Of a stretch of 64,000 bases of DNA, positions 37,198 through 49,404 are shown piece after piece. The stretch's first letter is position 1, and every line of letters begins with the position of its first letter. The translations under genes were made by a program, and so were the position numbers. Under the pieces are notes generated by a model. The model made no database searches. It was not told where the DNA came from and was given only the letters and a program-made list of their open reading frames with translations. The stretch is from Sinosporangium siamense (GTDB lineage: Bacteria; Actinomycetota; Actinomycetes; Streptosporangiales; Streptosporangiaceae). The DNA lies in NCBI RefSeq assembly GCF_016863435.1, contig NZ_BOOW01000015.1:62001-126000 (forward strand). The letters are read 5' to 3'.

Positions 37198-38658
37198 TCA
37201 ACATCGGCGGCGGAGAACATCGGCGAGTTCCCGGAGGGTTTCCAGGCGGGTGCCGGGCGAAGGCGACACACGCAGCAGGGGCCCGGTCATGTCGGAGGGG
37301 GCGCGACTCGTCGGCACGAGCCCTATGAGCAGTGCCGCCTCCGCCGCTCTGGCCTGCGTCTCCTCCGGATCCGTCCCAGGCGGCGGGCGCAGGGTGACGA
37401 TGGCGGAGGGCTCGCCGAGCGGTTCGGCGACGCGCCAGCCGCCCGCGCCGTCCAGGATCCCGCGCGCCGCCGCCCCGGCCGCCGCCAGGCACGCGTGGAC
37501 GGCTTCCGGACCCAGCGCGTGGTGTTCGAGTACGGCGGAGCCGAAGCCGACCCGCGCCGCGATCGCGCCCTCGTAGCTCTCGAACCGATCCGCCGGGCAC
37601 AACGCGTGTGGGCAGGGGATCGTGTCCGGGACGTCGGGCGGGCCATCGAAGTCGGATATGCGGTCGAAATCGCCGCTCGCGCCGAGGACCGCGGCACTTG
37701 GCTCGCCGCGGTCGCCGTTCGTGCCGAGTCCCGCGTGACCTCGCTCGCCCCGCCTGCCGCGCCGGCCGCCGAAGTCGCGGCTCGCGCCGGGCAGGATCAG
37801 GAACCCCACCCCCCGAGGCCCGGCGAGCCATTTGCGGGACGTGCCGATATAGGCCGTCGCGCCGATGCCGCGGGTCTCCACATGACCGAGGGACTGGCAC
37901 ACGTCCACCACCAGCGGCACCCCCGCCGCCCGGCAGAGGGCGCCCACGGCCTGCGCCGGTTGCACGACGCCCCGGTGCGAGGAGATATGGGAGAGCACGA
38001 GCAAGTCGAGGCCGGACACGAGGATCGACCGCAGACCGGCAAGATCGACCCGAGAGTCCCCGTCCAGAGGGATGTCGACCAGCCGCCAGCGGTGCCGCAC
38101 CGCCAGGCGGCACAGCAGCGCCACCGTCGCGCCGTATTCCGCCCGCGTCACCCCGATCCGCGCCCCTGCGGGCAACGCCCAGCCGCCGAGCAGCGCCGCC
38201 GTGGCCGCGGTGCCGCTCTCCACGTAGGCGACGTCCTGGGCCCGTGCGCCGACCAGCGCTGCCAGGCCCGCCTTGGGCACGGTCTGGTCGGGTGCGGCGG
38301 CATAGCCGCCCACCTCGCGTTCCAGCCGGAGATGGGCGGCCATCGTGTTGACCACCCGGTCACTCGGCACATTGCACCCGGCCGCGTCGAGATGCCCCCC
38401 GGGCCCGGCACTCCGCGCCCGCCGCCACGCCTCCGCGACGCTCTCGCCGGCGGCAGCCGTACAAACCGGCTCGGCCGACCGGGAAGCCTTGCCGCTCGCC
38501 GGGATGCCTGGCGTGGCGACGGCCGGACCCGCCTCCGGGCGGGCCGCGGAGGCCGTCGGGCCACACGCCGAGACGCCTGCCGCGCCCGTGTCCGCCGAGG
38601 CGGCGCTCTTCCCGATGCCGCTCCCCGGGCCCGCCCCGGTGTGGGGAGGCCCGTTCAC
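37198..38658 (-). CDS. egtE: EgtE-like class V aminotransferase (C-S lyase of ergothioneine pathway)
   Basis: GTG 38658 overlaps the EgtD stop (GTGA) and gives 486 residues, about 100 more than usual. The PLP-fold core is complete: TAATAALLGGWALPAGARIG, VPLVVDVCQSLGHVET (Asp) and the PLP lysine in YIGTSRKWLAGPRGVGFL. The excess comes from an Ala/Gly/Ser/Pro-rich N-terminal extension (about 60 residues) and a low-complexity insertion (about 50 residues, GRRGRRGERGHAG) after the PLP region. EgtE cleaves hercynylcysteine sulfoxide to ergothioneine. Location at the end of egtABCD supports the role. The extensions are probably disordered and not catalytic. Confidence 0.85.
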   Translation of the reverse strand: MNGPPHTGAGPGSGIGKSAASADTGAAGVSACGPTASAARPEAGPAVATPGIPASGKASRSAEPVCTAAAGESVAEAWRRARSAGPGGHLDAAGCNVPSDRVVNTMAAHLRLEREVGGYAAAPDQTVPKAGLAALVGARAQDVAYVESGTAATAALLGGWALPAGARIGVTRAEYGATVALLCRLAVRHRWRLVDIPLDGDSRVDLAGLRSILVSGLDLLVLSHISSHRGVVQPAQAVGALCRAAGVPLVVDVCQSLGHVETRGIGATAYIGTSRKWLAGPRGVGFLILPGASRDFGGRRGRRGERGHAGLGTNGDRGEPSAAVLGASGDFDRISDFDGPPDVPDTIPCPHALCPADRFESYEGAIAARVGFGSAVLEHHALGPEAVHACLAAAGAAARGILDGAGGWRVAEPLGEPSAIVTLRPPPGTDPEETQARAAEAALLIGLVPTSRAPSDMTGPLLRVSPSPGTRLETLRELADVLRRRC

Positions 38659-39653
38659 ACCGCCGCCAGCGTCAGGCTGAAGTCGCCCGCCGGGTCGGTG
38701 TAGAAGCGCTGTACGGCGAAGCCCGCGTCTCCGAGTTCCTCCTTCAGCCCCTCGCGCCGGAACTTCGAACTGATCTCGGTGCGGATCTCCTCCCCGTCCG
38801 CCAAGGACACGGTGAGGCCGAGTGCGGGAATGCGCACCCGCATGTCGCGGGTGGCGCGCAGCCGCATCTCGATCCACTCGTTGTCCTCGTCGAAGAGCGC
38901 GACGTGCTCGAACAGCGCGGGATCGAAGTCGGCGCCGAGTTCCCGGTTGACCACGTGGAGCACGTTGCGGTTGAAGGCCGCGGTGACCCCGGAGGCGTCG
39001 TCGTAGGCCGCGACGAGCCGGGCCCGGTCCTTCACGAGGTCGGCCCCGAGCAGGAACGTGTCCCCTGGCCGCAGCGTGTCGTGGAGGCTCTTGAGGAAGG
39101 CGCGGCGGGCCGCCGGTTCGAGGTTGCCGATGGTGCCGCCGAGGAACGCCACCATGCGCCGGCCGTCGCGCGGCAGCAGGGCGAGGTGCCGCTCGAAGTC
39201 GGCCCGCACGGCGCGTACGGCGACGCCGGGATAGCGGGCGGCGAGCCGGCCCGCCGCCTTCAGCAGGGTGGTGGCGTCGACGTCGACCGCCGTGTAGGCG
39301 CGCAGGCTGTCGCCCGCCGCCATGGCGTCGAGCAGCAGGACGGTCTTCTCGCTGGTGCCCGAGCCGAGCTCCACCAGGGTGTCGGCGCCGCTCGCCGCTG
39401 CGATGTCGCCGGCCCGTTCCCGCATGATGGCCAGTTCCCGCCGGGTCGGGTAATACTCGTCGAGCCGGGTGATGCGCGTGAACAGGTCGCTCCCCACGGC
39501 GTCGTAGAACCACTTGGGCGGCAGCCACTTCGGCGTGGCGGTCAGTCCGGCGCGGACGTCGTGTTCGAGGTCCAGCCGGGGGTTGCTGCGTTCGAGGTGG
39601 TCGACGAAGCCGACGGACGGGTGGGCCGGGCTGGCCGGGTGGCTGACGGGCAC
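38655..39653 (-). CDS. egtD: L-histidine N-alpha-methyltransferase EgtD
   Basis: GTG 39653 lies after AAGGAGGCACC and gives 332 residues. EgtD (DUF2260-type methyltransferase) signatures: RAGLTATPKWLPPKWFYDAV, GSDLFTRITRLDEYYPTRRE, the SAM loop VELGSGTSEKT, AYTAVDVDATTL, VAFLGGTIGNLEPAARRAFL and the C-terminal EISSKFRREGLKEELGDAGF. It trimethylates histidine to hercynine in three SAM-dependent steps, the first committed reaction of ergothioneine synthesis. It overlaps egtE by 4 nt and follows egtC by 23 nt. Confidence 0.95.
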   Translation of the reverse strand: MPVSHPASPAHPSVGFVDHLERSNPRLDLEHDVRAGLTATPKWLPPKWFYDAVGSDLFTRITRLDEYYPTRRELAIMRERAGDIAAASGADTLVELGSGTSEKTVLLLDAMAAGDSLRAYTAVDVDATTLLKAAGRLAARYPGVAVRAVRADFERHLALLPRDGRRMVAFLGGTIGNLEPAARRAFLKSLHDTLRPGDTFLLGADLVKDRARLVAAYDDASGVTAAFNRNVLHVVNRELGADFDPALFEHVALFDEDNEWIEMRLRATRDMRVRIPALGLTVSLADGEEIRTEISSKFRREGLKEELGDAGFAVQRFYTDPAGDFSLTLAAV

Positions 39654-39676: not shown

Positions 39677-40384
39677 TTAGAGCGGCAGAACCTGCGTGCC
39701 TCCTCGCGTGACGAGCACGAGGCTCCGGTCGGGCACGGCGTGCCAGCCGGGCCGGTCGTCGAGCGGCTCGCTGGCCACCAGCACGCCGTGGTCGCCTCGG
39801 TGGAGGAAGAGCGTGTCGCCGCACGCGGTGGCGGCGAGCGAGGCGCCGTCGGCGGCGAGCAGGTTGAGCCTGGCCTCGGGGTCCTTGGCGGCGGCTGTGG
39901 TGACGACGCCGGCGAGGGCGTCGCCGAGGGGCAGCCCGGCGCGCAGCCGCAGGAATACGGCGGCGGCGAGCCAGGCGGAGTCGCAGGTGCTCTCGGCCCC
40001 GTCGGCGAGGTCCCTGACGGCGCCGGGGTCGACCCGCCCGTTGTGGCTGAGCAGGTGGGTGCCGTCGGTGAAGGGCGCGGTGGCGGTCTCCTCGACGGGC
40101 ATGCCGGCGGTGGCGGACCGCACGGCGGCCAGCAGGCAGTGCGAGCGGGCGGCGCGGGCGAGGCCGGGCAGGTTGGCGTCGGTCCAGATGGGCACCGTTC
40201 TGCGATAGCGGACGGGGCTGTGGTCGGCTTCGCCGTACCAGCCCATGCCGAAGCCGTCGGCGTTGATCATGCCGTGGCGCTGGAGGCGGGGGGAGTAGGA
40301 CTGCTGGAGCAGGCCGTTGCCGGGGTCGAAGATGAGTGAGGCGAGGCTCGCGGGGGCGCCGAGCCAGGCGGCGTGGCGGCACAT
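39677..40384 (-). CDS. egtC: Gamma-glutamyl-hercynylcysteine sulfoxide hydrolase EgtC
   Basis: The 235-residue class II glutamine amidotransferase-type protein begins MCRHAAWLG, so Cys2 becomes the N-terminal nucleophile after Met removal. NADGFGMGWYGEADHSPVRY, ARSHCLLAAVRSAT and HLLSHNGRVDPG complete the Ntn fold. EgtC removes glutamate from gamma-glutamyl hercynylcysteine sulfoxide, so its presence implies the EgtA/EgtB glutamyl-cysteine route. The ATG abuts the EgtB stop directly (TAGATG). Confidence 0.93.
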   Translation of the reverse strand: MCRHAAWLGAPASLASLIFDPGNGLLQQSYSPRLQRHGMINADGFGMGWYGEADHSPVRYRRTVPIWTDANLPGLARAARSHCLLAAVRSATAGMPVEETATAPFTDGTHLLSHNGRVDPGAVRDLADGAESTCDSAWLAAAVFLRLRAGLPLGDALAGVVTTAAAKDPEARLNLLAADGASLAATACGDTLFLHRGDHGVLVASEPLDDRPGWHAVPDRSLVLVTRGGTQVLPL

Positions 40385-41701
40385 CTACGCCTGCCCGGCG
40401 GGTGCGGTGCGGGCGCAGCGGAAACCGGAGAAGATCTGCCTCCTGATGGGGTAGTCCCAGTTGCGGAACGTCGTGCGGACCGCGGCGGGGTCGGCGGCCC
40501 AGGAGCCGCCGCGCAGCACCCGGTGGTCCCCGCCGAAGAACACCTCGCTGTACTCCCGGTAGGGAAAGGCGCGGAACCCCGGGTAGGGCAGGAAACACGA
40601 CGACGTCCACTCCCAGACCTCGCCGATCATCTGCTCGGCGCCGTAGGCCCCGGCTCCCGCCGGGTAGGCGCCGACGGGGGCGGGTCTGGCGGCGCGGTGG
40701 CCGAGGTTGGCCCGGTCGGGGGTGGGGGGTTCGTCGCCCCAGGGATATTTGCGGGCGCGTTCGGCGTCGGGGTCCCATCCGCAGGCCTTCTCCCATTCGG
40801 CCTCGGTGGGGAGCCGCTTGCCGGCCCAGCGGGCGTAGGCGTCGGCTTCGTACCAGCAGACGTGCTGGACGGGTTCGTCCATGGGGACCGGTTCGGGGCG
40901 GCCGAAACGCGAGCGCCACCAGGTTGCGCCCTCGCGGGTCCAGAACAGCGGGGCGTGGACGCTGGACTCGGTGCGCCACCGCCAACCGCCGGGGGCCCAC
41001 CAGCGCGGGTCGTCGTAGCCGCCGTCCTCGATGAAGTGGATGTAGGAGCGGTTGTCGACGGGGAACCGGTCGATGTAGTAGGCGGGCAGGTCGACACGGT
41101 GGGCGCGCCGCTCGTTGTCGTAGGCCCACGGCTCGGTGTCGGTGCCCATGAGGAACGGCCCGGCAGGCACGAACACCTCGTCGGCCCCGAACGCGGGCCG
41201 GCCGGGCGGCAGGGGGCTGTCGCGCACGAGGCCCGGCTGCCCGGACAGCTGGAGGGTGGCGAGCATGGTCTCGTCGTGCTGGTGCTCGTGCTGGATCACC
41301 AGGCCGAAGACGAACCCGGCCCGGTGCAGGGGCTCGGGGCCCGACAGGTCGATCGCGTCGAGCACGTCCAGGGTGCGGCCCCGCACCCCGGAGATGTATT
41401 TGCGGGTCTCGGCCGGGCCGAGCAGGGGGAGGGTGGGGCGGCTCTTGCGCGGCTGCTTGAAGGCGTCGTAGAGGTCGTCGATCTCTGGCCGCAGCGGGGT
41501 GATGCCGCCGGCCTCGCGCAGCACCCACAACTCCTCGTAGTTGCCGATGTGCGCGAGGTCCCAGATCAGGGGCGACATCAGCGGCGAGTGCTGACGCAGC
41601 AGCAGGTCGTCCTCGGCGTCGGTATACGCGAGCGACCGGCCCCGCACGGCGGCCAGGTCGGTTGCGATTCGTTCCTTGAAGGTGGCTGCGAAGTCGTTCA
41701 A
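40385..41701 (-). CDS. egtB: Ergothioneine sulfoxide synthase EgtB
   Basis: I choose TTG 41701: it overlaps the EgtA stop (TTGA), has GGAAGG 7 nt upstream and begins MNDFAATFKERIATDLAAVR, giving 438 residues. The DinB-like N-terminal domain has a His in LIWDLAHIGNYEELW and the iron-binding H-x3-H-x-E in QHEHQHDETM. The C-terminal FGE-sulfatase domain follows: FLMGTDTEPWAYDNE, FPVDNRSYIHFIEDGGY, CWYEADAYARWAGKRLPTEA, EWEKACGWD, VWEWTSSCFLPYPGF and RVLRGGSWA. The enzyme couples hercynine and gamma-glutamylcysteine with O2 at a non-heme iron. Confidence 0.95.
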   Translation of the reverse strand: MNDFAATFKERIATDLAAVRGRSLAYTDAEDDLLLRQHSPLMSPLIWDLAHIGNYEELWVLREAGGITPLRPEIDDLYDAFKQPRKSRPTLPLLGPAETRKYISGVRGRTLDVLDAIDLSGPEPLHRAGFVFGLVIQHEHQHDETMLATLQLSGQPGLVRDSPLPPGRPAFGADEVFVPAGPFLMGTDTEPWAYDNERRAHRVDLPAYYIDRFPVDNRSYIHFIEDGGYDDPRWWAPGGWRWRTESSVHAPLFWTREGATWWRSRFGRPEPVPMDEPVQHVCWYEADAYARWAGKRLPTEAEWEKACGWDPDAERARKYPWGDEPPTPDRANLGHRAARPAPVGAYPAGAGAYGAEQMIGEVWEWTSSCFLPYPGFRAFPYREYSEVFFGGDHRVLRGGSWAADPAAVRTTFRNWDYPIRRQIFSGFRCARTAPAGQA

Positions 41702-42981
41702 GACTGCCCTTCCTCGCGTCGCAGGGACGGCGGGTGCCCGCCCGGTCCGCTCAGCCGTTCGATCAGGTTCTCGGGACCGCAGGCCATGAGGTCGGCCGCG
41801 GGGGACAGGCCCGGTGTCACATACCGGTCGGCGAACTCGGCCACCCGCTCGACGAGGCCCTTCCCCGCGCCGAGCCGGGGAAGGGCCGCAAGCGCCGCGT
41901 CGAAACACGCCTCCGCCGCGCCGCGCAGGGCCGTGTCGGCGAGGCCGTGCCGTGCGGCGTGCCGCCACCGCGAGGTGCCGGGCGGCGGCGCCGAGAGGTA
42001 AGGCTCGGCGCCCGCGAGAGCGGTGTCGGCCGCCGTGTCGTCAACGATCAGCGCGTGGGTGACGGCCACGCACACCGGCCACAGGTCGGGGTGCTGGGCG
42101 TCGAGATAGCGGATCTCCAGCCACCCGCGCGGCCGGACCGGCGGGAACAGGGTGGTGGCGTGGTAGGCGAGGTCGTCGAGGGTGGGGCGGGGGACGGTCG
42201 CCGGGCCGGTCAGCCAGTCGCGGAAGGTCGAGCCGTCGTGGACGGGGCGGTAGCCATCCGGGCCATGCCGTACCAGCATGAGGCGGGCGTCGAGCAGGTA
42301 GTCGCGCCACGCCCCCGCGGGGTCGGCGGCGGCGGGCACGGGGGCGGTCCTGGAGCGGTCGAGGTTCTCCCACACGGCCTGGCGGCCCGACATCCACATG
42401 CAGCGGCGGCCCGCCATGAGCGGCGAGTTGGCGAAGGCCGCGGTCAGCACGGGGCCGAGGGTGTGGGCGCGTTCCCACCGCCGTGCCGGATGCTCGCCGA
42501 GATCCAGGTTGACCTGGATGGAGGCGGTGGAGCACATCATGAGCGCGCCGTACGGCAGGCCGAGGAAGGCCGCCATCGCGTCGTAGCGCGGTTCGTGCAC
42601 CTGCCTGGCGGCCCGGCGCACCGGGTCGAGGCCGACTCCGGCGAGCAGCAGGCCGTCCGCCAGCAGGGCGGCCCGGACGACCGCGACGTCGGCGGCGAGG
42701 GCGCCGATCGCGGCGGTCAGGTCGCCGGCGGGGCCGGAGAGTTCGAGCTGGCCGCCGGGTTCGAAGGTGATCCGGCTGCCGCCGGGCAGGGCGGGCAGCG
42801 CCTCGGCGACCCTGGCGACCGGCACCGGGCGGGCGGGAGCCGTACGGTCGAAGACCAGGAACTCCAGTTCGGCTCCGACGCGGTCGCCGCCTGAGGTCAG
42901 GACGGGGAAGCATGAACGCGCGAAGTCATCCACCGCCGAGACGTCCATGATCGGCGTGTCCTCGGCCGCCAGCCCGACCAT
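41698..42981 (-). CDS. egtA: Glutamate-cysteine ligase EgtA
   Basis: ATG 42981 follows AAAGGGGAT and gives 427 residues; an in-frame start at 43035 is possible but lies inside a duplicated segment. The protein has the GshA/GCS2-like fold: GGDRVGAELEFLVFDRTAPA, ITFEPGGQLELSGPAGDLTA, MMCSTASIQVNLDLGEHPAR, AFANSPLMAGRRCMWMSGRQ and GWLEIRYLDAQHPDLWPV. It makes gamma-glutamylcysteine for EgtB. It is the first egt gene, 154 nt after the anti-sigma gene, in the same direction. Confidence 0.93.
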   Translation of the reverse strand: MVGLAAEDTPIMDVSAVDDFARSCFPVLTSGGDRVGAELEFLVFDRTAPARPVPVARVAEALPALPGGSRITFEPGGQLELSGPAGDLTAAIGALAADVAVVRAALLADGLLLAGVGLDPVRRAARQVHEPRYDAMAAFLGLPYGALMMCSTASIQVNLDLGEHPARRWERAHTLGPVLTAAFANSPLMAGRRCMWMSGRQAVWENLDRSRTAPVPAAADPAGAWRDYLLDARLMLVRHGPDGYRPVHDGSTFRDWLTGPATVPRPTLDDLAYHATTLFPPVRPRGWLEIRYLDAQHPDLWPVCVAVTHALIVDDTAADTALAGAEPYLSAPPPGTSRWRHAARHGLADTALRGAAEACFDAALAALPRLGAGKGLVERVAEFADRYVTPGLSPAADLMACGPENLIERLSGPGGHPPSLRREEGQS

Positions 42982-43012
42982 TCGATCCCCTTTCGCGCGG
43001 GTGTCCTCGGGT

Positions 43013-43170
43013 CTACAGACCCGTGAGACGGCCACGCGTTACAGGCGACTTCGAGGATCGGCCGCGCCCCGCTTCGCCGGCGGCTGCCGGAGCGGATGGT
43101 GTCTGCTCTATACAGACCGGCCGGGCGGCCCGGCGTTACAGGGGACTTCGCGGATCGGCGGTGCGCCGCT
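43013..43170. repeat. Duplicated tail of the anti-sigma gene
   Basis: Two similar copies of about 60 bp lie 97 bp apart: 43013-43074 and 43110-43171. Both contain ACAGACC, then GCGTTACAGG, GACTTCG and GGATCGGC. In copy 2 this is the real 3' end of the anti-sigma gene (codons for ADPRSPL and stop). Copy 1 would code ADPRSRL and stop in the same manner but has no gene attached. It is thus a duplicated gene end in the egtA leader region. Confidence 0.75.
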
Positions 43171-43447
43171 CGCGGAAGGCCGCCAGCAGCCGCTCACGCG
43201 CCTCGGCGGGCAGCTCCTCAGGCAATGCTTCGGGTGGGGCCTCGGCGGAGCCGTTTGCCGCGTGCCGCTGGGGGTTGCGCAGGCGGCCGAGCAGGCCCGC
43301 CGTGGCGCGAAGCTGGCCGACATAACGCTCGCAGCCCCCACAGCCGGCCAGATGGGCCGTGAGGTCGCCGCGCGCGGATTCTTCCAGCGCATCGTCCATA
43401 TAGGCGGTGGCGAGTTCCACCACCTCTTCGCACCTGAACCGCTTCAC
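43136..43447 (-). CDS. Zinc-binding anti-sigma factor (ZAS/RsrA-like)
   Basis: GTG 43447 is the first start after the sigma-factor stop, 45 nt downstream, with GAGG upstream; the product has 103 residues. Zinc/redox ligands: C6 (RFRCEEV), H32, C36 and C39 (HLAGCGGC). The spacing C-x25-H-x3-C-x2-C equals that known for RsrA (C11, H37, C41, C44), the thiol-sensing partner of SigR. The C-terminal half is Ala/Glu/Arg-rich with no membrane helix, so it is cytoplasmic. It should bind and hold the sigma factor until oxidised. Confidence 0.82.
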   Translation of the reverse strand: MKRFRCEEVVELATAYMDDALEESARGDLTAHLAGCGGCERYVGQLRATAGLLGRLRNPQRHAANGSAEAPPEALPEELPAEARERLLAAFRERRTADPRSPL

Positions 43448-43491
43448 AGTTGTGATCGCCTCACCCTCTCGCGGATCGAATCGTATGTGCG

Positions 43492-44193
43492 CTAGCTCGG
43501 CCGGGCGGCCACCTGAAAGTAGTCGGAAAGCCGGCCCCGCACCGACGCGCGGGCCCGGTGAAGGAGGACCCGCTGATTGGCGGCCGAGATGGCCAGGATC
43601 TCGCACACCTCCTCCGATGTGCACCCCTCGACATCGCGAAGGGTGATCACGGTGCGCTGCCGGGGCGGCAGCTCGGCCAATGCCGCCGCGAGCCGGTCGC
43701 GCGTCTCGGCGGCCAGCGCCTCACCCTCGGGCGTCGGCCAGCGGGCCGGGGGCTCGCGCCAGGCGCCGGGGCTCGGCCCGCCCGCCCCGTGGAAACGCCT
43801 GTCGGGCCGGTCGGCCGCCGGCGCCCCGTCGTGCTCGGGGGCTCCGTCGAAGGCGCTGCTCCAGGGGATGGTACGGCTTTCGCGCGCCTGCCGTTTCTTG
43901 GCGGTGTTGGCGAGGATCCGGTAGATCCAGGTCTTCACCGAGGACCGCCCTTCGAACCCGTCGATGCCCGCGATCACCGCGAGCCAGGTCTCCTGGACGA
44001 CCTCCTCGGCGGAGGCGCGGGTGGACAGGTAGGACCCGGCGACGCGCAGCATGCCGGGCGACCACTCGTCGAGCAGCCTCGCGAACAACTCCTCGTCGCC
44101 GGAGCGGAGTCCCGCGACCACGACGTCGTCCGGAGGCAGCCCACCAGCCGCGATAATCCCCACGGTAGATAGCTTCCCCGCCAGCCCCGACAC
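43492..44193 (-). CDS. ECF-type RNA polymerase sigma factor
   Basis: The 233-residue protein has region 2 (LLDEWSPGMLRVAGSYLSTR, ASAEEVVQETWLAVIAGI, SSVKTWIYRILANTAKKR) and region 4 (ALAELPPRQRTVITLRDVEG, CTSEEVCEILAISAANQRVL, LHRARASVR). An unusually long, Pro/Gly-rich linker (about 50 residues) joins them, and there is a 25-residue N-terminal extension. The anti-sigma gene follows 44 nt downstream, then egtABCDE, all in one direction. A GGAAC-N17-GTT promoter lies 70-93 nt upstream, the usual self-recognised pattern of ECF factors. Confidence 0.92.
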   Translation of the reverse strand: MSGLAGKLSTVGIIAAGGLPPDDVVVAGLRSGDEELFARLLDEWSPGMLRVAGSYLSTRASAEEVVQETWLAVIAGIDGFEGRSSVKTWIYRILANTAKKRQARESRTIPWSSAFDGAPEHDGAPAADRPDRRFHGAGGPSPGAWREPPARWPTPEGEALAAETRDRLAAALAELPPRQRTVITLRDVEGCTSEEVCEILAISAANQRVLLHRARASVRGRLSDYFQVAARPS

Positions 44194-44261
44194 ATGTCCA
44201 CATCGTCATGCTTTGTCGGTTTCGGTCCGCTAGATCTCGTAATTATGCATAGACCGGGGTA

Positions 44262-44286
44262 AACACCGTGGAACACTGCTGGTTCC
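44262..44286 (-). promoter_or_regulatory. ECF-type promoter before the sigma factor gene
   Basis: On the minus strand GGAAC (44286-44282) is followed after 17 nt by GTT (44264-44262), the classic ECF -35/-10 arrangement. GGAAC also forms an inverted repeat with GTTCC (44270-44286 overall). The predicted start is about 60 nt before the sigma-factor ATG, consistent with autoregulation. Confidence 0.6.
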
Positions 44287-44395: not shown

Positions 44396-45148
44396 GTGAC
44401 CGGCCTGCGAGTCCTGGCCGTGGACGACGAACTCCCCGCGCTGGAAGATCTGGCCTACCTGCTGCGGGCCGACCCCCGGATCGCCGAGGTGGCCACCGCC
44501 CGCGACGGCGCGGCGGCGCTGCGCCTGCTGGACCGCGCCATCGCCCAGGGCCGGCCGGTGGACGCGGTTTTCCTCGACATCCGGATGCGGGGGCTCGACG
44601 GCGTCGTGCTCGGCAGACTGCTCTCCCAGTTCGCGAGCCCGCCCAAGGTCGTCTTCGTCACCGCCTACGAGGAACACGCCGTCGACGCCTTCGAGATCAA
44701 GGCCGAGGACTACCTCCTCAAGCCCGTCCGGGCCGAACGCCTGGCCGAGGCGGTCCGCCGGGTCTGCGTGGCGGCCGACGCCCCCGAACCCGTCCGCGCC
44801 GAACCCGACACCATCCCCGTCGAACTCGGCGGCGTGACGAGATTCGTCTCCAGCTCCGACGTGGTCTACGTCGAGGCCCAGGGCGACTACGCCCGCCTGC
44901 ACACCCACGGCGCCAGCCACCTCGTCCGCATCTCGCTCAACACGCTGGAGGAGCGGTGGGCGGCGGCCGGGTTCGTGCGGGTGCACCGCAGCCACCTCGT
45001 CGCCGTCAAGCACATCGAGGAGCTCCACCTCGACTCCGGCCGCTGCACCGTGCGCGTCCGCGGCGCCGAGATCCCGGTCAGCCGCCGCCACACGCGTGAG
45101 CTGCGCGACCTGCTTGTGCGCCGGGCCCGCAAGGGAAGGGCCGATTGA
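44396..45148 (+). CDS. LytTR-family response regulator
   Basis: The 250-residue protein has a receiver domain (VLAVDDELPALEDLAYLLR with the acidic pair; phosphoacceptor D61 in FLDIRM; Thr/Lys in VTAYEEHAVDAFEIKAEDYL, LKP) and a C-terminal LytTR DNA-binding domain (VVYVEAQGDYARLHTHGASH, RVHRSHLVAVKHIEELHL, VSRRHTRELRDLL). LytTR proteins bind direct repeats about 21 bp apart. The gene is coupled to a small membrane protein and an acetate-type symporter. Its kinase is not adjacent; the LytS-type kinase at 2328 is the candidate. GTG 44396 follows GAGAGGTGGACC. Confidence 0.92.
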   Translation: MTGLRVLAVDDELPALEDLAYLLRADPRIAEVATARDGAAALRLLDRAIAQGRPVDAVFLDIRMRGLDGVVLGRLLSQFASPPKVVFVTAYEEHAVDAFEIKAEDYLLKPVRAERLAEAVRRVCVAADAPEPVRAEPDTIPVELGGVTRFVSSSDVVYVEAQGDYARLHTHGASHLVRISLNTLEERWAAAGFVRVHRSHLVAVKHIEELHLDSGRCTVRVRGAEIPVSRRHTRELRDLLVRRARKGRAD

Positions 45149-45519
45149 AGGCGGACCGGCCGCGCCGGGTGGTCGTCACCAGCCCCAGGACCTCGGCCGC
45201 CCGTCCGCCCCGCTATCCCGCCACCCGCGAGATCGACGAGCAGACCGGCCTCGGTGAGGTCTACATGCGGTCGCTGGTGCGCGCGCAGCTCCGCCTGGCG
45301 TTGTTCGTGTGCACCGTGCTTGGCTGCGTGGTCCTCGGGCTGCCGCTGATCTTCGTGCTCCTGCCCGGCTTCTCGCAGGTCGCCGTGCTCGGCGTGCCGC
45401 TGCCCTGGGTGGTGCTCGCCGGGCTGATCTATCCCGCGTTCGTGGGCGGCGCCGTACTCTATGTACGGCAGGCCGAGCGCAACGAGGCGCGGTTCGCCGA
45501 GCTGCTGGAGCGCGAGTGA
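45145..45519 (+). CDS. Small membrane protein with symporter operon (DUF485-like topology)
   Basis: TTG 45145 overlaps the response-regulator stop (TTGA); 124 residues. A basic 40-residue N-terminus (TREIDEQTGLGEVYMRSLVR) precedes two membrane helices (LALFVCTVLGCVVLGLPLIF and VVLAGLIYPAFVGGAVLYVR), and a short acidic tail follows. The two-helix topology and position before a symporter match DUF485 proteins, but the DUF485 signature is not clear. It is probably an accessory subunit of the next gene. The next gene overlaps by 4 nt. Confidence 0.75.
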   Translation: MKADRPRRVVVTSPRTSAARPPRYPATREIDEQTGLGEVYMRSLVRAQLRLALFVCTVLGCVVLGLPLIFVLLPGFSQVAVLGVPLPWVVLAGLIYPAFVGGAVLYVRQAERNEARFAELLERE

Positions 45520-47024
45520 ACGCCGCCCTCCAGATGGGCGCCGTGGTCGCGGTGGTGTCGGCCACGCTCCTCATCGGGGTCTTCGGGTTGCGCGTGTCGC
45601 GCACCACGTCCGACTTCTACGTGGCCTCCCGCACGGTCTCGCCCCTCTGGAACGCCTCGGCCATCGGCGGCGAATACCTGTCGGCCGCGTCGTTCCTCGG
45701 CATCGCCGGGCTGATCCTCGCCTACGGCGCCGACATGTTGTGGTTGCCGGTCGGCTGGACCGGCGGCTATCTGGTGCTCCTGGTGCTGATCTCGGCGCCG
45801 CTGCGCCGCTCCGGGGCCTACACCCTGCCCGACTTCGCCGAGGCCCGCCTGGAGTCGATGGTCGTCCGGCGCGCCGCCGGGGTGCTGGTGGTGCTGATCG
45901 GCTGGCTCTACCTGATGCCGCAGTTTCAGAGCGCCGGGCTCGTGCTGCGCACCGTCACCGGGGCGCCTGTGTGGGCCGGGTCGCTGCTCGTGGCCTTCGT
46001 CGTGGTCGTCAACGTGCTGTCGGGCGGCATGCGGTCGATCACCTTCGTCCAGGCGTTCCAATACTGGCTGAAGCTGACCGCGCTGGCCGCGCCCGTGATC
46101 TTCCTGCTCATCGCCTGGCGCCGCGACGGCGCGCCGGGGCTGACCGCGCAGGACCTCTCCACCTGGGCGATGCCGCTGGCGGGCGACCGCGACTACGACA
46201 TCTACTCGACCTACTCGCTGATCCTCGCGACCTTCCTCGGCACCATGGGCCTGCCGCACGTGCTGGTCCGCTTCTACACCAACCCCGACGGGCGCGCCGC
46301 CCGCCGCACCACTCTCGTCGTGCTGGCCCTGCTGGGGTCGTTCTACCTGCTCCCCGCGATCTACGGCGCCCTCGGCCGTATATACGCGACCGACCTGCTG
46401 GCCGAGGGGCGCAGCGACGCGGTCGTGCTGACCCTGCCGGGCCGCCTGCTCGGCGGCACCCTCGGCGAACTGCTCACCGCGCTCGTGACCGCCGGGGCCT
46501 TCGCCGCGTTCCTGTCCACCTGCTCGGGGCTGACCGTGTCGGTCGCCGGGGTGATCGGCCAGGACCTCCTCCAAGGGGGCGTGCGGTCGTTCCGGGTGGC
46601 CGCCGTCCTCGCGGTGCTCATGCCGCTCGGCCTCGCGCTCGCCGCCCGGGCGCTGCCGGTGGCCGACGTGGTCGGCCTGGCCTTCGCCGTGGCGGCCTCG
46701 TCGTTCTGCCCCCTGCTGGTGCTCGGCATCTGGTGGCGGCGGCTCACCGACGCCGGCGCCATGGCGGGCCTGGTGAGCGGCGGCGGCCTGGCGAGCCTCG
46801 CGGTGATCGCCACGATCGTGGGCGGCCCGCACGACGGCCTGCTCGGCGCACTCCTCGCCCAGCCGGCCGCGTGGAGCGTGCCGATCGCGTTCGTGGTGAT
46901 GATCGTCGTCTCGCTGCTGACCCCGCATCGGGTGCCGTCCGGCGTGGCGCGGATCATGGTGCGGCTGCACACACCCGAGAACCTCGACGTGGACCGCGGC
47001 GACTGGCGGCCCCGCCGCACGTGA
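45516..47024 (+). CDS. Sodium:solute symporter, acetate/monocarboxylate type (1)
   Basis: GTG 45516 overlaps the upstream stop (GTGA) and gives 502 residues and about 13 membrane helices. SSS signatures: SDFYVASRTVSPLWNASAIG, GEYLSAASFLGIAGLILAYG, GGMRSITFVQAFQYWLKL and GTMGLPHVLVRFYTNPDGRA. The last is typical of the cation acetate symporter (ActP/MctC) group. It should import acetate, pyruvate or propionate with Na+ or H+. It differs strongly from the second symporter at 47794, so the two may have different substrates. Confidence 0.9.
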   Translation: MNAALQMGAVVAVVSATLLIGVFGLRVSRTTSDFYVASRTVSPLWNASAIGGEYLSAASFLGIAGLILAYGADMLWLPVGWTGGYLVLLVLISAPLRRSGAYTLPDFAEARLESMVVRRAAGVLVVLIGWLYLMPQFQSAGLVLRTVTGAPVWAGSLLVAFVVVVNVLSGGMRSITFVQAFQYWLKLTALAAPVIFLLIAWRRDGAPGLTAQDLSTWAMPLAGDRDYDIYSTYSLILATFLGTMGLPHVLVRFYTNPDGRAARRTTLVVLALLGSFYLLPAIYGALGRIYATDLLAEGRSDAVVLTLPGRLLGGTLGELLTALVTAGAFAAFLSTCSGLTVSVAGVIGQDLLQGGVRSFRVAAVLAVLMPLGLALAARALPVADVVGLAFAVAASSFCPLLVLGIWWRRLTDAGAMAGLVSGGGLASLAVIATIVGGPHDGLLGALLAQPAAWSVPIAFVVMIVVSLLTPHRVPSGVARIMVRLHTPENLDVDRGDWRPRRT

Positions 47025-47464
47025 CGTCCCGATCCTCGCCGCCTCGGCCCGGCCCTACCCGATGTCCTGGTCGCCGCCATCAGGGGGGCTCCGCCCTACC
47101 GTGGGATCGTCTCGCGCCCGGCCCGTGTCTGTGATCGTCTCGCGTGGCGAGGCCGCCCCCGGCTCGCGTCTGCGTGGGGTTCCGCCGTACAGGCCGGTCT
47201 TCCGGCGGAGGCTTGACGGGGGCGGGTTTGAAACGTGATGAGCTGGTGTTTTTGATGATTTTTCCGGATGCGGGGCGGTAAGTGGGAGCGAGGCAGGGTG
47301 ACCGTTCACCGCTGCTAGGGAACCTTTCACCGCAAGGTGGGGCCAACTGGTCGCCGCCTCGTGCCGACTCGCCGATGCACCCGCGCGCCCCTCTCCAAAA
47401 CCGCTACGGTCGCCTCTTACGTTGAGCGTGATCGGCATCACACTCGCAAGGGGAGGGTCATTCA
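47025..47464. other. Long intergenic region before the second symporter operon
   Basis: This 440-bp gap holds no convincing gene. It contains GATCGTCTCGCG twice (47105-47116 and 47133-47144), a GC-rich segment with GGGCTCCGCCCTACC, an AT-richer stretch around 47240-47280, and a 21-bp-phased direct repeat at 47301-47333. Minus-strand frames here have no ribosome binding site and no recognisable product. It is probably the regulatory region of the DUF485-symporter pair. Confidence 0.7.
47301..47333 (+). promoter_or_regulatory. Candidate LytTR binding site (21-bp-phased direct repeat)
   Basis: ACCGTTCACCGC (47301-47312) and ACCTTTCACCGC (47322-47333) are direct repeats exactly 21 bp apart, two helical turns. 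LytTR regulators such as AgrA and AlgR recognise 9-bp direct repeats with about 12 bp between them, with half-sites like ACAGTTAAG or CCGTTCGTC. The site is 132 nt before the DUF485-symporter operon, and the LytTR gene lies just upstream. Confidence 0.65.
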
Positions 47465-47797
47465 GTGACCACCAGGCAGCACGACATATCGGTCTATGAA
47501 CAGGTGCAGCGGAGTGGAGAGTTCCAAGAGCTGAAGCGACGGTTCCGATCGTGGGCTTTCCCGATGACCGCAGCCTTCCTCGGGTGGTATCTCCTCTATG
47601 TCGTGCTGTCTGGTTTCGCCCGTGACTTCATGGGCGTCAAGCTCCTCGGCAACATCAACGTGGCACTGGTCTTCGGCGTGCTGCAGTTCGTCTCCACCTT
47701 CCTGATCGCCTGGGCCTACTCGCGCCACGCGGAGCGCAAGCTCGACCCGCTGGCCGACAAGCTCCGGCACGAGGTGGAGGAGAAGGAGGCGCGATGA
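47465..47797 (+). CDS. DUF485 membrane protein
   Basis: The 110-residue protein (GTG start with AAGGGGAGGG upstream) has the DUF485 pattern: VQRSGEFQELKRRFRSWAFP, MTAAFLGWYLLYVVLSGFAR, DFMGVKLLGNINVALVFGVL and QFVSTFLIAWAYSRHAERKL. Two membrane helices are followed by a charged tail (DPLADKLRHEVEEKEAR). DUF485 proteins (E. coli YjcH) are encoded with acetate symporters and probably form part of the transporter. It overlaps the symporter start by 4 nt (ATGA). Confidence 0.94.
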   Translation: MTTRQHDISVYEQVQRSGEFQELKRRFRSWAFPMTAAFLGWYLLYVVLSGFARDFMGVKLLGNINVALVFGVLQFVSTFLIAWAYSRHAERKLDPLADKLRHEVEEKEAR

Positions 47798-49404
47798 GCC
47801 AGGAACTGCTGTCCACGATTCTCTTCCTGCTTTTCGTGGTGGGCACCCTCGCCATCACGTTCTGGGCCAGCCGCAACACCAAGGACGCCGCCGACTACTA
47901 CGCCGGCGGGCGGTCGTTCACGGGTGTGCAAAACGGCATGGCCATCGGCGGCGACTATATGTCCGCGGCGTCGTTCCTCGGCATCGCCGGCATCATCGCG
48001 CTGTCGGGATATGACGGCTTTCTTTACTCGATCGGCTTCCTCGTGGCCTGGCTGGTCGCGCTGCTGCTCGTCGCCGAGCTGATGCGCAACTCCGGGAAAT
48101 ACACAATGGCCGACGTTCTCGCCTTCCGGATGAGCCCTCGGCCGGTCCGCACGGCCGCCGGGGTCTCGACGATCACGGTCAGCATTTTTTATCTGCTCGC
48201 CCAGATGGTGGGGGCGGGCGCTTTGGTGGGTCTCCTGCTCGGCGTCACCTCCGAGGGGGGTAAGGCGCTCACCATCGTCGGGGTCGGCCTACTGATGATC
48301 ATTTACGTGGTCGTCGGGGGCATGAAGGGCACCACCTGGGTGCAGATCGTCAAGGCCGTCCTGCTCATGGGCGGCGCGACCCTCGTGACCCTGCTGGTCC
48401 TCGGCAAGTTCGGGTTCAACCTCTCCGCCCTTCTCGGCCAGGCCGCCTCCCAGAGCGGCAAGGGCGACGTGTTCCTCAACGCGGGCCTCAAATACGGCAC
48501 CGAGGCGCAGGGCCTCGCGGGCAAGATCGACCTGATCAGCCTCGGCCTGGCCCTCGTGCTCGGCACCGCCGGGCTTCCCCACATTTTGATCCGCTTCTAC
48601 ACCGTTCCCACGGCCAAGGACGCCCGCAAGTCGGTTATGTGGGGCATCGGCATCATCGGCACCTTCTACCTGCTGACCCTCGTGCTCGGCTTCGGCGCCG
48701 CCGCACTCGTGGGCAGCAAGGCCATCGCCGAACAGAACGCCGCCGGCAACACCGCGGCACCCCAGCTCGCCAAGGTCGTCGGCCAAGAGCTCTTCGGCGA
48801 CTTCGGCGGCACGCTCCTCCTCGCGATCATCGCCGCCGTGGCCTTCGCCACGATCCTGGCCGTGGTCGCGGGCCTCACGCTGGCCTCGTCCTCCAGCTTC
48901 GCGCACGACCTCTACGCACACGTGATCAAGCGTGGCAAGGCCACCGAGAAGCAGGAGATCACGGTCGCCCGCATCTCGGCCTTCGTCATCGGCGCCGTCG
49001 CGATCGTGCTCGGCATATTCGCTCAGAAGCTCAACGTGGCGTTCCTCGTCGCGCTGGCCTTCGCCGTGGCCGCGTCGGGCAACCTGCCGGCCATCCTCTA
49101 CAGCCTGTTCTGGAAGCGGTTCAACACCTCCGGGGCCGTCTCGGCGATCTACGGTGGTCTGCTGTCCGCCGTGATCCTCGTGATCTTCTCCCCGGTGGTC
49201 TCCGGCACCCCCACCGCCCTCTTCCCCAACGCCGACTTCGCCTGGTTCCCCCTGCAGAACCCCGGCATCGTGTCGATCCCGCTCGGCTTCCTCGCAGGCT
49301 GGCTGGGCACCGTCCTCAGCCGCGAGAGCGACGAGAGCAAATACGCCGAGATGGAAGTCCGCTCCCTCACGGGTGTCGGCGCCGAAAAGGCCAGCACCCA
49401 CTAA
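47794..49404 (+). CDS. actP: Cation acetate symporter (ActP/MctC-like) (2)
   Basis: The 536-residue SSS protein has about 13 helices: SRNTKDAADYYAGGRSFTGV, QNGMAIGGDYMSAASFLGIA, YLLAQMVGAGALVGLLLGV, VVVGGMKGTTWVQIVKAVLL, GTAGLPHILIRFYTVPTAKD and NLPAILYSLFWKRFN. This pattern is typical of ActP/MctC acetate-propionate-pyruvate symporters. It is translated together with DUF485 and followed by a strong hairpin. Regulation by the LytTR protein through the repeat at 47301 is likely. Confidence 0.93.
   Translation: MSQELLSTILFLLFVVGTLAITFWASRNTKDAADYYAGGRSFTGVQNGMAIGGDYMSAASFLGIAGIIALSGYDGFLYSIGFLVAWLVALLLVAELMRNSGKYTMADVLAFRMSPRPVRTAAGVSTITVSIFYLLAQMVGAGALVGLLLGVTSEGGKALTIVGVGLLMIIYVVVGGMKGTTWVQIVKAVLLMGGATLVTLLVLGKFGFNLSALLGQAASQSGKGDVFLNAGLKYGTEAQGLAGKIDLISLGLALVLGTAGLPHILIRFYTVPTAKDARKSVMWGIGIIGTFYLLTLVLGFGAAALVGSKAIAEQNAAGNTAAPQLAKVVGQELFGDFGGTLLLAIIAAVAFATILAVVAGLTLASSSSFAHDLYAHVIKRGKATEKQEITVARISAFVIGAVAIVLGIFAQKLNVAFLVALAFAVAASGNLPAILYSLFWKRFNTSGAVSAIYGGLLSAVILVIFSPVVSGTPTALFPNADFAWFPLQNPGIVSIPLGFLAGWLGTVLSRESDESKYAEMEVRSLTGVGAEKASTH

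Follow-up and report, generated by a model that had tools for sequence, protein, structure and literature searches.

The window, the stretch of 64,000 nucleotides of Sinosporangium siamense DNA analyzed here, carries on its minus strand a regulatory gene pair followed by the genes for ergothioneine synthesis. Transcription runs in the order sigma, anti-sigma, egtA, egtB, egtC, egtD and egtE, down to position 37198 (Table 1), so that the initial annotation was right to place a sigma and an anti-sigma gene 5' of egtABCDE. Divergent from the sigma gene is a gene for a LytTR-type response regulator (44396-45148, plus strand), and the frames beyond it (about 45461-49404) resemble sodium:solute symporters by eye.

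Table 1 Genes and sequence features of the sigma/anti-sigma/egt locus (window coordinates)
Feature	Position	Strand	Basis or remark
ECF sigma gene, sigma-70 regions 2 and 4, GTG start	43492..44163	minus	profile matches and orthologue comparison
Anti-sigma gene, 103 aa, zf-HC2/ZAS type, CHCC ligands C6, H32, C36, C39	43136..43447	minus	PF13490 and orthologues
egtA, glutamate-cysteine ligase of the ergothioneine pathway	41698..42981	minus	TIGR03444, 382.5 bits (cut-off 370.8)
egtB (start inferred)	40385..41704	minus	TIGR03440, 423.9 bits (cut-off 360)
egtC	39677..40384	minus	TIGR03442, 271.6 bits (cut-off 218.65)
egtD (start approximate)	38655..39644	minus	TIGR03438, 358.6 bits (cut-off 290.9)
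egtE (start approximate)	37198..38511	minus	TIGR04343, 399.5 bits (cut-off 400), nearly full length
Distal egtA promoter copy, TGTAACG-N15-GGTCTGTA	43111..43140	minus	exact match
Proximal egtA promoter copy, TGTAACG-N15-GGTCTGTA	43014..43043	minus	32 nt 5' of the egtA ATG
Tandem duplication of about 67 bp (43098-43164 and 43000-43067)	43000..43164	minus	local alignment
GGAAC-N17-GTT string, rejected as promoter	44262..44286	minus	0.95 expected by chance in the window

In a profile search, the sigma gene product matched PF04542 (50.6 bits) and PF08281 (58.4 bits) and otherwise only related sigma models, as expected of an ECF sigma factor, which has regions 2 and 4 only. Comparison with orthologues identified the GTG at 44163 as the conserved start, ten codons 3' of the start of the longest frame, and not position 44193. 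Against the SigR/SigH model TIGR02947 the protein scored 55.7 bits, under the cut-off of 251.55 bits, whereas a SigR copy on another contig of the same genome scored 350 bits. The anti-sigma protein likewise reached 29.9 bits with the RsrA equivalog model TIGR03988, far under its cut-off of 62.5, while the true RsrA encoded elsewhere in the genome gave 101 bits. The genome's own SigR/RsrA pair lies on contig C17, and the identification of the window pair as SigR/RsrA was rejected because the genome has that pair elsewhere.

The anti-sigma gene lies 44 nt 3' of the sigma gene, an order that relatives keep. Translated from the GTG at 43447, its product begins MKRFRC and matches PF13490 (zf-HC2) at 31.9 bits, over the gathering cut-off of 22.2. 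The four ligands and their spacing (C-x25-H-x3-C-x2-C) are invariant across 25 orthologues and are exactly those read in the initial annotation. Compared with solved structures, the protein's profile matched RsiW and RslA best, and RsrA and ChrR weakly. The predicted structure is helical (mean pLDDT 80); its top fold matches were anti-sigma domains, though weak, with none at an E value of 0.001 or better, so the fold contributes little that the sequence profile does not already show. By eye the protein has no membrane segment; it is small and single-domain and looks soluble. From its family and the gene order, we infer that it would bind and inhibit the sigma factor.

To place the locus in its family, we examined 121 Streptosporangiaceae genomes. 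A genome search found a sigma homologue in 36 of them, and a further search of the same set found egtA in 110. Sigma homologues at least 60% identical are nearly always encoded on the same strand as egtA and immediately 5' of it; in two genomes (G031 and G069) the distance is about 2 and 4.5 kb, and in Planotetraspora (g22) the sigma gene stands head-to-head with a second egtA copy. Among named Streptosporangiaceae loci, 46 (L127-L172) have the sigma gene and a CHCC anti-sigma gene, and the order sigma, CHCC anti-sigma, egtA holds in all 44 that are long enough to tell; the other two (L144 and L160) are on contigs that end just beyond the anti-sigma gene. The linkage spans genera as distant as Nonomuraea, Planobispora and Rhizohabitans. 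One lineage (L023, L024 and L203) keeps the sigma gene, the egtA promoter and egtA, with no recognisable anti-sigma gene between them. A sigma tree placed most egt-linked sigmas in a single group with support 91, which comprises 54 rows, 52 being egt-linked; the Herbidospora sigma is set apart on a long branch. The egt comparison lies mostly within this one family, and common descent therefore accounts for some of the conservation.

Reading the gaps upstream of egtA side by side revealed a promoter-like element, TGTAACG-N15-GGTCTGTA, with the -10 variants G(G/A)TCT(G/A)TA. The window has two copies, against 0.07 expected by chance at up to two mismatches. They arose by tandem duplication of about 67 bp, the alignment of the repeats scoring 69 compared with a maximum of 37 in 500 shuffles. 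In the distal copy, the -35 takes in the anti-sigma stop codon. A single promoter copy stands at egtA in the other sigma-carrying genomes; in the congener G004 it corresponds in position to the distal copy of the window, and the duplication occurs only in this genome among those compared. It looks recent.

Across genomes, the element follows the sigma gene. Of 23 genomes with the sigma, 22 show it at egtA when at most one mismatch is allowed, and the same search gave one stray match away from egtA; in the remaining genome (G003, Nonomuraea deserti), the element has two mismatches. Among 77 related genomes that lack the sigma, two contain the pattern somewhere and none at egtA. Where the sigma gene and egtA are kilobases apart (2-4.5 kb), the element remains at egtA; the second egtA copy of G031 lacks it. 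Conservation over 45 rows is concentrated in two sharp blocks, GTAACG and CGGgTCTgTAG, a build typical of ECF promoters. The regulon was examined by pattern searches of eight genomes with up to three mismatches and the reversed pattern as control; matches were no more numerous than with the control, so no target beyond egtA is detectable.

Two variants of the arrangement were observed within the family. In Planotetraspora (L026-L028 and L194), the sigma gene is divergent from the second egt cluster, where the element reads GTAACG-N15-GAGACC, with the same -35 and a different -10. In Streptosporangium, the region between the anti-sigma gene and egtA holds an additional zf-HC2 gene, read from the other strand (L004, promoter at 910; L009, 2715; L025, 970; L130-L132, L135, L141 and L142). 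This gene has a site of its own, TGTAACG-N15-GGCACT, divergent from the egtA promoter, and its product could be a feedback inhibitor.

Homologous sigmas also occur away from ergothioneine genes. In Kribbella, Lentzea, Amycolatopsis, Pseudonocardia and others, sigma homologues 53-62% identical are encoded with CHCC anti-sigma genes, and no egt genes were found nearby. Like the window pair, they have a site before a neighbouring gene with the same -35 and a 15-nt spacer, but the -10 and the targets are different. Their site, TGTAACG-N15-GGCACTGA, often stands 5-6 nt 5' of the ATG of the neighbour, which suggests leaderless transcripts. A scan allowing up to three mismatches with GTAAC fixed, over a set that included some Streptosporangium loci, gave 55 matches to it compared with 1 in shuffled sequence. 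The neighbours (at L173, L175, L181-L187, L191, L195, L199 and other loci) encode a Na/H-exchanger-type antiporter, MFS transporters, a Rieske-TPP enzyme and an FMN reductase. The sigma-4 helix NQRVLLHRAR, the expected reader of the -35, is nearly identical in the egt and non-egt sets, and together with the shared -35 and spacer this indicates that these features follow the sigma family whatever the target. By this comparison, the -10 (GGTCTGTA in egt members, GGCACTGA in the others) and the target are what changed between the two sets, the -35 and spacing being kept. The wider subgroup thus seems to control antiporters and oxidoreductases via TGTAACG-N15-GGCACTGA, and the function of this actinobacterial ECF/zf-HC2 family seems not to have been described.

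ECF sigmas usually, though not obligatorily, recognise their own promoter and so establish positive feedback. In the window, no egtA-type site was found in the 400 nt 5' of the sigma gene, and looser matches occur in 2 of 46 relatives; positive feedback is therefore not indicated, and the sigma operon seems to be made from another promoter than that of its own sigma.

We consider it likely that, in Streptosporangiaceae, the pair forms an ECF sigma/anti-sigma switch dedicated to ergothioneine synthesis as its single target. In the proposed mechanism, the CHCC zinc-finger protein would hold the sigma inactive; upon release of this inhibitor, the sigma would direct RNA polymerase to TGTAACG-N15-GGTCTGTA before egtA, turning on egtABCDE. 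The state of the switch would then be set by sigma release and not by positive feedback. The predicted sigma-directed transcription of the egt genes is strongly supported because of the linkage, the egtA-specific site, the homologous sigmas with the same -35 and spacer, and the sigma-4 helix. The local sigma switch on egt put forward in the initial annotation gains accordingly from the linkage, from a promoter that is all but exclusive to egtA and from its family-wide build. Its further statement that both genes run into egtABCDE describes the gene order correctly but overlooked the conserved promoter that egtA has of its own.

Other readings of the promoter were weighed. The initial annotation gave the sigma gene a GGAAC-N17-GTT promoter, on which the sigma would act before its own gene, with egt served by read-through. 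That string exists and the gene order permits read-through, but almost one occurrence is expected by chance per window, the string is missing 5' of the sigma gene in 46 of 46 named relatives, it is not present in the congener G004, and egtA has a dedicated promoter; we rejected it as a promoter, a chance-level, unconserved string before the wrong gene, and regard this reading as the least credible of all. Hardly more probable is that the egtA element is an RNA structure or a palindromic operator in the egtA leader (GGNTCTRTAGANCC). Many genomes do have a near-palindromic -10 part and show a few paired changes in it. In Nonomuraea, however, the 3' arm of the palindrome decays, whereas the TGTAACG block and the GGTCTGTA half are retained, and the Herbidospora element has its end about 7 nt 5' of the egtA ATG, a spacing that would fit a transcription start and a leaderless transcript and not an RNA element. 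It also seems unlikely, if less remote, that TGTAACG-N15-GGTCTGTA is recognised by another regulator or sigma and that the egt-adjacent pair serves something else. The sigma is tied to the site by sequence comparison only, and its own gene lacks the site; against this, the site at egtA tracks the presence of the sigma, the same -35 and spacing stand beside homologous sigmas with other targets in other families, and no other genome location is enriched for it.

What would release the sigma is a more evenly balanced matter. Thiol-redox control of the switch is plausible, and for the trigger itself, oxidation of the CHCC thiols or some other thiol or electrophile stress, we put the chances at about equal. 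The fuller version, in which a stand-alone thiol-stress sigma switch for the ergothioneine promoter alone arose in Streptosporangiaceae from the wider ECF subgroup by keeping the -35 and gaining a new -10 and target, falls just short of an even chance. A considerable, somewhat smaller probability attaches to the switch as described answering to a signal other than thiol oxidation, with the zinc being structural, as in RsiW, and the cue being zinc supply, a metabolite or proteolysis. RsiW has the CHCC ligands, yet is redox-insensitive and keeps its sigma bound when oxidised (PMC5358783). The residues reported to set the redox sensitivity of RsrA are E39, E40, L45 and E46 (PMC5358783), and at these positions the window protein has A34, G35, E40 and R41, which are unconserved in the 25 orthologues; its score with the RsrA model points the same way, as does the separate SigR/RsrA pair of the genome. 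On the other side, the N-terminal cysteine, which in RsrA is required for oxidative release (PMC4960319), is invariant, the protein belongs by its small size, soluble look and single domain to a class often linked to intracellular redox sensing (PMC7406223), and the target pathway makes a redox thiol. The RsrA-like redox character suggested in the initial annotation is hence borne out for the CHCC spacing, but this spacing is common among ZAS proteins and is shared by RsiW, and the RsrA-model score and the absent flanking determinants do not bear it out.

Actinobacteria have ergothioneine as their second low-molecular-weight thiol, next to mycothiol, and its control is known mainly from global regulators of Mycobacterium. 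A sigma factor for one operon, if true, would separate this control from the SigR/mycothiol response, and what the cell senses before making ergothioneine would become directly testable. The locus also offers a compact promoter-sigma-inhibitor set of very high predicted specificity, together with a subgroup of actinobacterial ECF sigmas with promoters that are recognisable in the sequence. We found no description of an ECF sigma encoded with an egt operon in open-access full text, the literature covered by our search.

Among known systems, SigR-RsrA of Streptomyces coelicolor (SigH-RshA in mycobacteria and corynebacteria) resembles the window pair in having an ECF sigma gene followed by a gene for a small CHCC zinc anti-sigma protein, and in a probable tie to low-molecular-weight thiols. 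SigR is an autoregulated sigma with a large regulon and promoters of the GGAAT type, whereas the window sigma has the site TGTAACG-N15-GGTCTGTA and one detectable target, with autoregulation not seen. RsiW of Bacillus subtilis is a top profile match of the window anti-sigma and shares its CHCC ligands, but it is anchored in the membrane and freed by proteolysis, and oxidation does not affect it (PMC5358783); by eye the window protein has no membrane segment. RslA of Mycobacterium tuberculosis, the other top match, differs in being membrane-associated (PMC2877774). For the ergothioneine genes and enzymes themselves, WhiB3 and PknD have been described as regulators in M. tuberculosis (PMC9480834), and in Sphingopyxis the EcfG general stress response regulates the ergothioneine genes (PMC7083833). 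All three resemble the proposed switch in exerting stress-linked control over egt genes or EgtD, and EcfG is also an ECF sigma, but they are global regulators encoded apart from the operon; EcfG acts on 79 transcription units via a partner switch, compared with a single detectable target, the adjoining egt operon, for the window sigma.
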